Assembly (NCBI GenBank): GCA_002189035.1 | Contig: NEEC01000004.1 | Location: 1,302,001-1,366,000, forward strand | DNA length: 64,000 nt | From: Utricularia gibba | Lineage: Eukaryota > Streptophyta > Magnoliopsida > Lamiales > Lentibulariaceae | Reading direction: 5' to 3' | In this document: positions 16,254-22,947 of the stretch, piece after piece | Layout: each line of letters starts with the position of its first letter | Position numbering within the stretch: the first letter of the stretch is position 1 | Position numbers and translations under genes: made by a program | Notes under the pieces: generated by a model | Told to the model about the DNA's origin: nothing | The model's database searches: none | What the model saw: only the letters and a program-made list of their open reading frames with translations

Positions 16254-16441
16254 GGTGATGTTTCATGTCCCTCGCTGCGTTATTGGGTACGAGATTATCG
16301 AATATCAAGTGGATTTGATTCTGTTGGAAGACTTGTGAAATTTCATCGTGTTTGGATTATCTGGGAGTGGGACTCATGTTTAAGGGGTAAGGATGTTCGT
16401 CGTCTGGTACTGAGAAATCTACTTTCATATTGTAGTGAAAG

Positions 16442-17693
16442 ATGCTGCAGGCGAGAACAGGGAGCTCTGGTTCATTAGAGGAAGGCAACAATGGGGCGCC
16501 TGGTTTCAGAACGATAGGCAAATCTTGGAGACGATTTCCATTGGCATTGAGAACTCTCAAGGTGCTTTTGTTTCTGTTGGGAATTGGAATAGTCTTCTCG
16601 TTTCTGTGTATGTACACCAGCCGTTTGATTAAAGTCACCAATGAGCTCCCTGTGAGAGTAAGATTTCAACCTTGTGCTCAAGATCATGGGAATTTAGCAA
16701 GCTGGATTAGAGCTCCTTCTAAGGTGAAGCATGATATGAATGATACTGAGCTTTTTTGGCGATCTTCGTTTATTCCAACGATTCAGGAATTCCCATTCAA
16801 GAGGATTCCTAAGATTGCATTCATGTTCTTGACTAGAGGACCTTTACCCTTGGCTCCTCTTTGGGAGAGATTCTTCCAGGGAAACAAAAAGTATTACTCT
16901 ATTTATGTTCATACATCACCTTCTTATCAGCCTGACTTCTCCCCTTCATCAGTCTTCTATGGCAGGCAAATTCCAAGCCAGGTAACAAGCAAATCTGTTG
17001 ACCATGATTGTAGGAAAGTGGTGCTTTCTGATCACATTGCTGTGTTTTTACCAGGTTGCTGAATGGGGGATGATGAGTATGTGTGATGCTGAAAGAAGAC
17101 TTCTTGCCAATGCATTACTTGATATCTCCAATGAATGGTTCATCCTGCTCTCAGAAGCTTGCATTCCAGTAATGAGCTTTGATTTCATATACAGTTACAT
17201 TTCAAAGTCAAGGTACAGCTTCATGGGTTCTTTCGACGAGCCTGGCCCTTATGGAAGAGGACGATACAACACTAACATGTCACCTACAGTCAACCTCACA
17301 GATTGGCGGAAAGGTTCACAGTGGTTTGAGATAAACAGACATCTTGCAGTTAAGATTGTTCAAGACAAGAAATATTACCCCTTGTTTGAGCAGTTCTGTC
17401 GACCAGGCTGCTATGTTGACGAGCATTACTTCCAGACAATGCTGACCATGGAATCACCTCATCTTCTAGCTAACCGAACCCTTACATGGGCGGATTGGTC
17501 AAGAGGGGGAGCTCATCCGGCCACCTTCAGTGAACCTGATCTAACACAAGGTTTCTTTGAGAAGCTCTTCCGTGGTAAGCCCTGCGAATACAATGATCAG
17601 CTCGCCACTGTCTGCTTCTTGTTTGTCCGGAAGATTGCTCCCAGTGCGTTGGATCATTTGTTAGAGAATTCTTCCAATTTTTTAGGGTTCTGA
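16442..17693 (+). CDS. Core-2/I-branching-type glycosyltransferase (GT14, DUF266, BC10-like)
   Basis: Golgi type II membrane glycosyltransferase family, implicated in wall or proteoglycan glycosylation (rice BC10 is a member). Exons 16442-16981 and 17055-17693 (73-bp intron) give 392 residues. Residues about 36-55 are a single membrane anchor (LKVLLFLLGIGIVFSFLCMY). The catalytic domain starts at KIAFMFLTRGPLPLAPLWERFF. Strongly conserved blocks follow: VAEWGMMSMCDAERRLLANA, DISNEWFILLSEACIPV, RYSFMGSFDEPGPYGRGRY, WRKGSQWFEINR, CYVDEHYF and NRTLTWADWSRGGAHPATF. The protein ends SSNFLGF as expected. The intron count is lower than in many plant homologues, but the product is full length. Confidence 0.93.
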
Positions 17694-18009: not shown

Positions 18010-21000
18010 CTATACACATCCTTGATCAGCCATGCTACTTGCGATCGCTAGGAAGGAGGCGATAGCAGCTCCATGAACCAGTACCCTGTACGAGAGATGC
18101 AGCAAATATGAGGTAACAGGCCGATGGTTGAACATCATTTATAAAGATTCATTGAGTGAAGAATGTGATGGTTGTCTTTACTCCGGACTCTCTTTGGAGT
18201 AACCAAAATCGCAGGCGGCTTTAAGAGTTCTTTGGTATGTCTGTTTCATTGCATCTTGTAGTTTTGTTTCAAAATCTTCAGGAGACCAATTCAAGTTGCA
18301 CTCTTTCAGTTCGAGTTCCCCAGCAACTACCTGCAATAGTTTGGCTGCTGCATCATCCAGAGACAGCTTGAAATGATATCAAGAGAGTTGGATACTCATT
18401 GATACTTACCCCTGCCACTCCGGCAGCTATGGAGGGGGCAACAAGAACGTTGGACTTCCTCAGAACATCATTGGCTTCAGGGGTACATGGCATGTTGGAG
18501 CCTAAGAGTTTTAAAACAAATTCTTGTTGAAGGGTAATCAGGAATCTAAGGCTATATACTCAGAGCAGGGACTCACCTTCTACGAGAATACGGCAACCTG
18601 AATTAACCAAATTGATGGCATCTGATTGATCAATCTCGTTCTGGCAAGCACAAGGAAATGCAACATCACAGCTTTCACTCCAGGGCTTTGCTTCATCATA
18701 GTACTTAGAGCGGGCATACGTTTTGGAGTAATCCCTGTAGCTGATTCCCATGAGCTGATGCATACCAACATTTAACAGCAGCAGAAAACAGTTGCAAACC
18801 TCAGACTTCTGTTCTGTTCTTTTATTTCTCTTAGGAAGGATATCTTCACGAAATCGAAACCATCCTCATCCATCAGATAACCCTTTGAATCTGCAGGATA
18901 AAAAAAATGCATTAGTGATACCATCATGATAATGGGTGATTTACTAAAGTAACTACCCACGCAATATTGCAACAGCAATAACACAGGAAATGAGGAGCTT
19001 GGCAAACCTGAGACAGTGACTGGTACTGCACCGTATGCAATAAGTTTCTCCAAAACATGCATTGATATCTTTCCAGAGCCACTAACTGCACATCTGGAAG
19101 AATGAATTTTTTACACCAGGGCTAAGAGCCAAAAGATGCAAAGAGGAAAAGGAAATTTCAGGCAATGACATCAAGAATGTGGATCCCAACCTGAGCCCCT
19201 TGAGATCTTTATTCATATCAGCAAGCATGAGTTGAGCAAAGAAGACCTGAAAATCATGGAAGCCATATTCCAATGACGAAGCTAGAAGCATACTGGAAAA
19301 AAAATAGATATAGTTACCAATCCATATCCTGTAGCTTCAGTTCGAAGGCTAGAGCCGGACCAGTTGACTCTGGGTCCTGTGAAACTACCCTGCAAACTAA
19401 GTCATGAATAACGGATTGCCAAAATGGGATGACTCCACGTTAGCATGTCCAGCTCTAGCTAAAAGTAAAGACAACGTAGAATTCAATACATTTTATCAAA
19501 TGTGAGCATAGGTGACACAGAACAACCTGAGAATGACCAACCAGACGCCTATAATGACCATATAAATAACCCATTTCACGCGTTCCGACCCCCATTTCTT
19601 CTGAAGGAAGATCCTGAGTATTCCCTTGAGTTAGAAGAAGTGCGTGACTGAAAACTGCAGAAGTAAACTGGATAATACCTTATCTGGACCCAAGTAACGG
19701 TACAGCTCGTTCATGAAGCTTTGACAGAACCGCAAGATCTGCATATAATTACAATTTTGAAAACACAGGTTACTGTTTGCATGACATCAAATGGACTATG
19801 GCACCAGATAAAACACCTCACTGTTACTTTTTCCCTTAGGATCAAAATCACTTCCACCAGAAGAGCCTCCAAGTCTGTATGGAGATAATGCATTCTTTAA
19901 GGTCTGCATATACAATAAAAACAAAGCATGAATCGAATAACATGAAAAGAATTTTCCAGAAATGATTTCGCGTATCAGATACCAATTTAAGCATTTAGAA
20001 TAAGGAAAAGGTCTATAATACTAAATGGTGAATAGCAGAAGCATCCAGAAATAAAATTTAATAGTTTCAGACAGCAGTTCAATCAGACTCAACATGTTTT
20101 CTGAATTATATAGCAGCAGTCAACAAATGATGGTAGTATGCAACACCTGTTCAAAACCAAGAAACTTTGCAATGCTCAAGTTCATCGAGGGATGGAAACG
20201 CAAACCACCTCTACACGGGCCCAGGGTCTGGTTGAAGTGAATGCGAAATCCTCGGTTAATATGTGTCTCACCCATGTCATCAGTCCATGGGACCCGAAAG
20301 ATGATTATACGCTCAGCTTCTAGCAGGCGTTCCATGGAGTTGACATAGCTGTAACATTAAGAGCCACAGCATGAACCCATATGCTGGTCCAGGTAGATAA
20401 AAATATATACAAATAACAAAGAGATCGCACTTGGAATTTTTTGAAATTACTCTTTCTAGAGCATGAACGGCTTCTTGAACAGACTGGATAAATTCAGCTT
20501 CAAGAGGATCTCTTCTCAGTACAGCTTCAACAATAGAACTAGCAGTTTTCGACATAAGAGCTGTCCCAGTGGACTCAGCACCGGAAATAATGTAACAGAT
20601 GCTATCAGATAATGAACAATATCCAATGGACATCAAAAGCATATCAATATGAAAACACATGGAAGCTCTCTATCATAGCATGGAAGTCAGAGGAAACCTC
20701 TTCTTCATGCTTATTAAAGAAAGATATAATTTTCATTGGAGCACAAAAACAGAAGAACGCATATAATTAAACAAAGAAACCGAAAGAAAAGAGAAGAAGC
20801 TAGGCAATAAAGAACTCCACATGCTAAGTAGAAAAGACACTACATTGAAATACACCTTTTACATAGATCGGCTTCTCAACAATTATCTTTTCTTTAGATG
20901 CTTGCTGTAGCCTAAGTGCCTCTTTGTGAAGCAAGCTGTTATTGTGCTCCTCTAGAGCACTCATCTGCATATTCCTACTACCTTCATTTCCATAGGGGTT

Positions 21001-21411
21001 ACGCCTATGCTTCCTGCCATACTCTCTGCACACTGAACAGAATATTCTAGCTGTGTTATCCCGAATATCAGCATAAGCCCATTTGTACGTGTCCGCCCAC
21101 TCCTCTCTCCACCTTTTAACGACCTTCTTCTTCCTTTTCCCAGACTGTGTCTTTAAAAAACCTGGATCTTCAGATGGATGTTGAGAACCCATAATAAGCT
21201 TGTCTTCAGAATTATCTTTTACAGAGGAATCATGGGATTGACCACCAAGAAGAGTTTCATCTGCATAAGGCGGGTCATCATCCCCAGGGCCTATTTCCAA
21301 ATCAATCTCCTCACCAAGTTCCCTAACAACAAGATGATGCCTATGAGCCTGCTGGATTAAGTTAATATCATCCATTCTAGTAGTCATACCAACTCCAGAT
21401 GGAAGCAACAT
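18010..21411 (-). CDS. Zinc-finger/glutamate-dehydrogenase-like protein (At1g51720 type), likely pseudoenzyme
   Basis: Fourteen exons: 20856-21411, 20431-20560, 20147-20348, 19817-19903, 19679-19738, 19527-19613, 19318-19389, 19191-19246, 19008-19093, 18800-18890, 18577-18734, 18410-18501, 18182-18330 and 18010-18085. They join in phase to 633 residues, close to the Arabidopsis relative. Residues 1-185 are a plant-specific extension with a C2-H2-like finger (CSVC at 125-128, His156 and His162). From residue 229 the chain follows bacterial NADP-type GDH: FNQTLGPCRGGLRFHPSMN, GFEQTLKNAL, SDFDPKGKS, and a Rossmann loop VSGSGKISM. Against C. symbiosum GDH, Lys89 is Arg275, catalytic Lys125 is Ser311, catalytic Asp165 is Glu351 and Ser380 is about Ala562; Lys113 is kept (Lys299). 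I infer loss of GDH catalysis and a regulatory or binding role. The protein ends ADQGCV. Confidence 0.93.
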
Positions 21412-22947
21412 TCAGCATAAGACCTTCGTCATAAACTACAGACAGCTAAATAACCCCACGATAAAATTCAATAAGTACTAGGATCATTTTTCATCATGAC
21501 AATCTAACCCCATGAGCATATTAAAGCTGAATGAAGTATGAGGATCCAATTATTTCAGTTTCAATCTAGAAACTGAATCTTAAACTCCCTTCATTCACCA
21601 ATTCCAGTATCTTCAGTGAACATACGGTAGGAGTTCCATTTTTTTCATCAAGGCAGCTGTATCGTAAAACAGTACCACGAAAACAAAACAAATTTTCCTT
21701 TTTCGACCCAAACCAGCTATCCAACTACTAGTACGGAGAACCTGCAAACACCAGAAAGCATTTAATTGATCAAACCGTAAGAATTGATATTTCGTTTATG
21801 TTACAGAAATGCGTTAGCAATAAAACAAAAAAAATCATGAAAGGGAATATTTTGACAATCTGGACAACAAGCAACAACCACTACATTTCCGAACCAATGA
21901 AAACCACGAAGAAACTACACAGGCTCAAGTTTCCAAACCCAGAAAACAAAAACCAATACGCCATAAATGAAAATAGTACCTCAAAGGAAATGTCTCGAAT
22001 TTGCTATCGGTGAAATCTAAGGAAATCATTTCACAATCTCGAAAACAAGCTACAAAAACCACACCTCCGAAGCAATGAAAACCACGAAGAAACTAAACAG
22101 GCTCAGGTTTCCATACCCAGAAAACAAAACCAATACGCCATAATGAAACTAGTACCTCAAAGGAAAAGCCTTGAATTCGCTATCGCTGAAATCTACGCCT
22201 GGGGTTTGTTCCTAATGAAAAGCTAATTAATGGGTATCACCTTCCGGATCGGATCACCTCCTCAAATGTTTCTTACAAGAAGAGCAAAACGTCCGGAACG
22301 CTCGGCTTCTGAAGGGAAGACAAAGAACGGCTTCTGAAACAACAGCTTGAGTTTTAGGATGGCGCAAAAAGCGACGGAGTGAAAAAAAGAAGTCAATTCC
22401 AACTACTACCGTTGCTGTTAGCATCGAGAAAATGACGCCATTCAGAATTAATTGCAGAGCAGACGAAGAAAGGGCCGAGCGCCCATTTTCGTGTAAACAA
22501 CACTAAAGAAATAATCGATCCAAAATTACGAACTTTGCCCAAGCGCCATATTATTGCAAGCAGCAAATTTGATTCTCCCGGTGGATTCTCCAGATCGTTA
22601 ACATTAAGTTTGTCCTGTCTTCAGTTTAATTTATGATTTCTATGTAAAATACGAAGTTTAGACAATGATGCACCGACATGGCATTCATATGAGAAATATG
22701 CTTACAAACATTACATCCGCATCAAGGTATTCATGCACCCAAAGTAGCTTAACATGAAGAGAAGTGATTGCATTACCAGCAGGCAACTGGAAAGTTTAGA
22801 TCTTTGAGTAAAAAATTTCCAGAACATTCAGTTTCAGTGTTGGCTGAAGCTCCCTGGGAGGTTACAGTGACATGAAACCGGAAAGGCGTAGCGTTCATTC
22901 TTTTAAACTGGAGCTTTAGCAAAGGCAAGCACATGTAGCTCTCTTCT
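21412..22947. other. GDH-like 5' leader with introns, and RPS15A 3' flank
   Basis: Reverse-strand splice donors (GAG|GTACTA) at about 22153 and a related one near 21976 suggest 5'-UTR exons and introns for the GDH-like gene; its start is probably near 22450. 22500-22947 is unassigned sequence and the 3' flank of RPS15A. No further gene is supported. Confidence 0.45.
21862..22200. repeat. Tandem duplication of about 178 bp in the GDH-like 5' region
   Basis: Two copies, about 21862-22022 and 22040-22200, with period close to 178 bp. Shared blocks include AATGAAAACCACGAAGAAACT, at 21896 and 22074, then AGTACCTCAAAGGAAA with a reverse-strand splice donor in each. The copies differ at scattered positions, so the duplication is not brand new. 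Confidence 0.75.

Follow-up and report, generated by a model that had tools for sequence, protein, structure and literature searches.

Whether higher plants possess a real NADP-dependent glutamate dehydrogenase (GDH) is an old question, and the locus described here, in a 64,000-nucleotide stretch of the Utricularia gibba genome (the window), raises it again: is the product of a gene whose family is annotated as NADP-GDH still an enzyme? By rebuilding the gene model from the six-frame translation of the window, we obtained 14 exons on the minus strand, running from 21411 to 18010 (exons 1-14: 21411-20856, 20560-20431, 20348-20147, 19903-19817, 19738-19679, 19613-19527, 19389-19318, 19246-19191, 19093-19008, 18890-18800, 18734-18577, 18501-18410, 18330-18182 and 18085-18010), with GT-AG borders at every intron, agreeing phases and a frame that stays open across all joins. 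The coding sequence of 1902 nt comprises 633 codons plus the stop, with zero internal stops and an in-frame TGA immediately 5' of the ATG, and its product has the same 633-residue length as that given in the first-pass annotation of this DNA.

The C-terminal part of the protein carries both GDH domains, namely ELFV_dehydrog_N, the substrate and dimerisation domain (PF02812, E = 1.6e-43; residues 241-367, exons 3-6, 19553..20312, minus strand), and the Rossmann domain ELFV_dehydrog (PF00208, E = 1.3e-62; residues 386-631, exons 7-14, approximately 18016..19369, minus strand). The best matches in the PDB are class I GDHs, such as those of Plasmodium falciparum (3r3j), Corynebacterium glutamicum (5ijz) and Clostridium symbiosum (1bgv), and with these and the Chlorella enzyme the protein shares the two domains in full at approximately 45-47% identity, together with the motifs GGLRFHP, KFLGFEQ, GGSDFDPKGKS and ATGYG, which makes it a class I NADP-GDH by homology. 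It scored 517.5 bits against the NCBIfam equivalog for NADP-GDH (NF006929, PRK09414), under the cut-off of 536. Unlike the class I enzymes, it has K89, K125, G164, D165, N240, N373 and S380 replaced (C. symbiosum numbering, used throughout for equivalents), has a zinc finger added at its N-terminus and shows no obvious organelle presequence.

To place these replacements, we compared the protein with 95 usable class I GDHs, drawn from 80 loci of bacterial and archaeal genomes and 16 of viral contigs, and took as near-invariant the 108 columns that are at least 97% invariant among them. The first-pass annotation had reported four changes and one retained lysine. Three of those changes hold in both the rebuilt protein and the alignment: Lys89 is R275 (codon 20209..20211, minus strand; K in 93/93 aligned GDHs), the catalytic Lys125 is S311 (19843..19845, minus strand; K in 94/95 and A in one) and Asp165 is E351, adjoining a second new glutamate, E350, at the position of G164 (19601..19606, minus strand; G and D each in 95/95). 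The retained Lys113 is likewise found, as K299 (19879..19881, minus strand; K in 95/95), and the equivalents of Q110 and T209 are also kept. The fourth change is real in that the serine of position 380 is absent, but the ungapped register places it at G563, one residue from the Ala562 originally proposed. The fold blocks were correctly described as kept, but the Rossmann loop only in part, as GSGNVA reads GSGKIS, with N240 replaced by K425. The loss is also wider than had been stated, since further near-invariant substrate and cofactor positions are changed: A163 to S349, K370 to I553, N373 to G556, A374-G375 to V557-A558 and the lysine of GVLTGK to P380. A change of Pro to Arg, R306, lies five residues before S311, just upstream of GGSSGG.

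In bacterial GDH, mutating K125 and D165 destroys activity, and of this catalytic pair, on which an assignment to EC 1.4.1.4 depends, the window protein has S311 and E351, just as the site for the side-chain carboxylate of glutamate, formed by Lys89 and Ser380, has become R275 and G563. Not all of these changes weigh the same. Because large GDHs naturally carry arginine at the position of K89 (PMC1716157), K89R and the conservative D165E are by themselves insufficient to argue for lost catalysis, and both are weaker evidence than the first-pass annotation made of them. No lysine that could stand in for the catalytic one lies beside S311. An artefact of alignment was rejected, as previously claimed, because the motifs on either side align gap-free and the losses recur in a second alignment, made with class II GDHs; an assembly error is unlikely, because several independent substitutions fall in five exons. 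A pseudoenzyme is defined by conserved catalytic residues that are missing by sequence analysis (PMC10211241), and the window protein lacks such residues. The claim that it is one, with loss of classical catalysis, is thus well supported as a prediction from sequence, the catalytic lysine being gone and further substrate and cofactor residues with it. The single comparison sequence without Lys125 is a GDH from a Desulfosarcina metagenome-assembled genome (L050, 601-1944), which has alanine there (GGGAGGSDFDPK), departs from the set at five more near-invariant positions and is possibly a bacterial pseudo-GDH or an error of that assembly.

Is this loss selective or general? The window protein keeps 84 of the 108 near-invariant columns, and the changes are concentrated at nine classical active-site positions, a set which we take to be that of the bacterial GDH active-site annotation: six of these nine are changed and three kept, whereas of the remaining 99 columns 18 are changed and 81 kept (Fisher p = 0.0036). 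The N-terminal half gives the same picture. There, class I GDHs and the three class II NAD-GDHs of U. gibba have 29 columns in common, of which the window protein keeps 24, among them every G, P, R and H scaffold column, and loses five: K275R (K89), V284M, K311S (K125), A349S (A163) and D351E (D165). These two patterns mean that constraint acts on the scaffold and not on the chemistry, and that the losses are not random decay.

The first-pass annotation overlooked what we consider the main clue to function, a zinc finger in front of the GDH fold. Exon 1 (20856..21411, minus strand; residues 1-185) encodes an acidic N-terminus that by eye bears no resemblance to a transit peptide, a basic stretch, GKRKKKVVKR (residues 91-100), that by eye is like a nuclear localization signal, and then a zf-C17orf113 finger (PF25431, E = 1.7e-24; 85.9 bits, above the gathering cut-off of 29.5) at residues 109-172 (20896..21087, minus strand). 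The finger matches the family over its full length, with CxxC and paired histidines (H-x5-H), and its zinc ligands would be C125, C128, H156 and H162, judging by this pattern and the Pfam match. Other known members of the family are transposase-derived or uncharacterised proteins, whereas here the finger is joined to a GDH fold. It is the single match in the U. gibba genome (100 Mb in 516 contigs, possibly incomplete). A search of PDB sequences with the finger gave no credible match to any solved structure, and a search of the openly available literature on C17orf113 found no paper. An AlphaFold2 single-sequence model of the finger stretch alone was all-helix with a pTM of 0.26 and was discarded as unusable.

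A protein search of the same genome with the 633-residue product returned only the exons of the window gene, and no second class I GDH, within those 100 Mb. Three further GDH loci, on contigs C1 (~1254828), C244 (~3053890) and C213 (~1516037), are matched by PF00208, yet were absent from the returns of that search. They read MKGGIRYHP, GGAKGG, VPAPDMG and GFGNVG, and NAGGVTVSYFEW was read in two of the three, C244 and C213. By these motifs they are ordinary class II NAD-GDHs, with the catalytic motifs intact as far as read, and the GDH activity of the plant is therefore independent of the window gene.

The family itself is already known and treated in the literature as NADP-GDH (PMC9820731; PMC13259437), which bears out the first-pass annotation on how such proteins are named. 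AT1G51720 is termed a putative GDH in a study of nitrate starvation (PMC7285260), and the Capsicum protein CcGDH (PHU30311.1), described as of the NADP-type class and annotated as an AT1G51720 counterpart, has 634 residues, nearly the length of the window protein, is 78.49% identical to AT1G51720 and was predicted as "Nu/Mit", with no transit peptide (PMC13259437). For the AtGDH4/OsGDH4 class, stronger conservation than that of the NAD-GDHs is reported, together with broad expression (PMC9820731). By length and annotation in these two sources, AT1G51720, OsGDH4 (Os01g0558200) and CcGDH are most likely orthologues, and it is through these papers that the long-term conservation proposed in the first-pass annotation finds its backing. 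In the literature searched, which lay outside subscription journals and included partial texts, we found no mention of catalytic loss or of a zinc finger in this family. The "amino acid dehydrogenase family" gene of a paper on essential genes is At3g12290, distinct from AT1G51720.

A quick maximum-likelihood tree grouped the window protein with two eukaryotic GDHs whose structures are solved (SH-aLRT 86). Its terminal branch measures 3.06 changes per column, and those of the two GDHs measure 0.83 and 1.01. Where so long a branch belongs is uncertain. Such a length is what a shift in constraint would be expected to give. In the green alga Chlorella the active NADP-GDH carries all three lysines together with the motifs GAGNVA and GVLTGKG (PMC1716157), and a simple story would be that the plant protein came from a Chlorella-like active enzyme, then lost catalysis and gained the finger. 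A scan of viral contigs for relatives found GDHs, and nothing resembling the plant protein. Five class I GDH genes found on IMG/VR contigs 61-170 kb in length (L104, L105, L110, L112 and L114) are close relatives of one another and make up a clade with full support, which a long stem sets apart from the cellular GDHs sampled; they are apparently carried by viruses.

Because key chemical residues are lost and a zinc finger is added at the N-terminus, the protein probably works as a regulator or sensor, on the frame of an old enzyme, and not as an enzyme itself. We favour, with some confidence, a conserved and probably nuclear hexamer, in which the C-terminal two thirds has a class I NADP-type GDH fold without classical catalysis and the finger stands in front of it. 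Class I GDHs are hexamers; if the GDH part still is, it would therefore display six zinc fingers. The NLS-like stretch and the finger suggest a DNA-binding regulator in the nucleus, where the fingers would bind nucleic acid or a partner in chromatin and the former active-site cleft could serve as a platform or ligand pocket. The sensing or scaffolding role proposed in the first-pass annotation is plausible, and the finger makes it more specific. We would guess that a dicarboxylate, for example 2-oxoglutarate, could still be bound by the kept Lys113 with R275, and that the SDS-G segment past the second Rossmann strand could remain a site for NADP(H); E350, in place of glycine, may close the pocket, and the choice between sensor and scaffold would turn on the state of that pocket. 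In its boldest form, which we put forward tentatively and regard as rather doubtful, the protein would be a single-copy plant nuclear regulator of transcription or chromatin, with a dead hexameric NADP-GDH that detects a dicarboxylate or NADP(H) and governs the activity of six linked fingers, making a direct carbon/nitrogen or redox sensor out of an enzyme of ammonium-assimilating algae. Dehydrogenase folds do act in gene regulation, sometimes without catalysis, as in CtBP/ANGUSTIFOLIA, Gal80 and the Bacillus subtilis trigger enzymes RocG/GudB; the first two belong to different dehydrogenase families and the last are active class II GDHs, and none of them is known to carry a zf-C17orf113 finger.

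It might be argued that the protein is still an active dehydrogenase with altered chemistry, working on another amino or keto acid with R306, E350 or E351 in place of K125 and D165. Lys113 and the glycine-rich frame are kept, E351 retains a carboxylate, R306 is near S311 and other pseudoenzymes offer examples of catalytic residues that have migrated (PMC10211241). However, besides the substrate positions, coenzyme positions are lost (N240K, and proline for the lysine of GVLTGK), and a 2006 survey of 116 GDHs, which excluded sequences labelled putative or similar, found lysines equivalent to K113 and K125 in every one of its 15 subsets (PMC1716157), so that we judge this unlikely. Pseudoenzymes commonly regulate active kin (PMC10211241), and with three active-type NAD-GDH genes in the genome an inactive chain could join other proteins, possibly active GDHs, and tune them. 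These kin are, however, class II GDHs of the mitochondrial type, distant in sequence from the class I domain, there is no evidence for hexamers mixed between classes and the zinc finger is left unexplained, which makes such a regulatory subunit quite improbable.

That the protein is simply an ordinary NADP-GDH, as its family annotation (OsGDH4; PMC9820731) and the strong overall GDH match would have it, is very improbable with the catalytic lysine absent and five other active-site positions changed. Hardly credible is a relic on its way to loss, with catalytic residues changed by drift: the long branch would fit, but the 14-exon frame is intact and the invariant scaffold kept, and a dying gene is further argued against by a likely orthologue of near-equal length and high identity in other families, as in Capsicum, and by the broad expression and high conservation of OsGDH4/AtGDH4 (PMC13259437; PMC9820731). 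The reading as a zinc-finger/pseudo-GDH regulator or sensor has consequences beyond U. gibba, since the family is counted and profiled as NADP-GDHs in work on plant nitrogen (PMC9820731; PMC13259437; PMC7285260). Should the protein be unable to catalyse, those interpretations will have to be revised and, if the reading is true, a zinc-finger/pseudo-GDH that is conserved and broadly expressed becomes a candidate for linking nitrogen metabolites to gene regulation.

The surroundings of the gene are ordinary for plants on its 3' side, where a Core-2/I-branching glycosyltransferase-like gene (16439-17690, plus strand; PF02485, E = 6.9e-63) is convergent with it and ends approximately 300 bases from its 3' end. 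Upstream of the start codon, two near-identical stretches of the form aaaaccacgaagaaacta...caggctca.gtttcca, approximately 190 bases apart, were seen by eye at 21880-22160 (plus strand), and they form a small direct duplication in the probable 5' region of the GDH-like gene.
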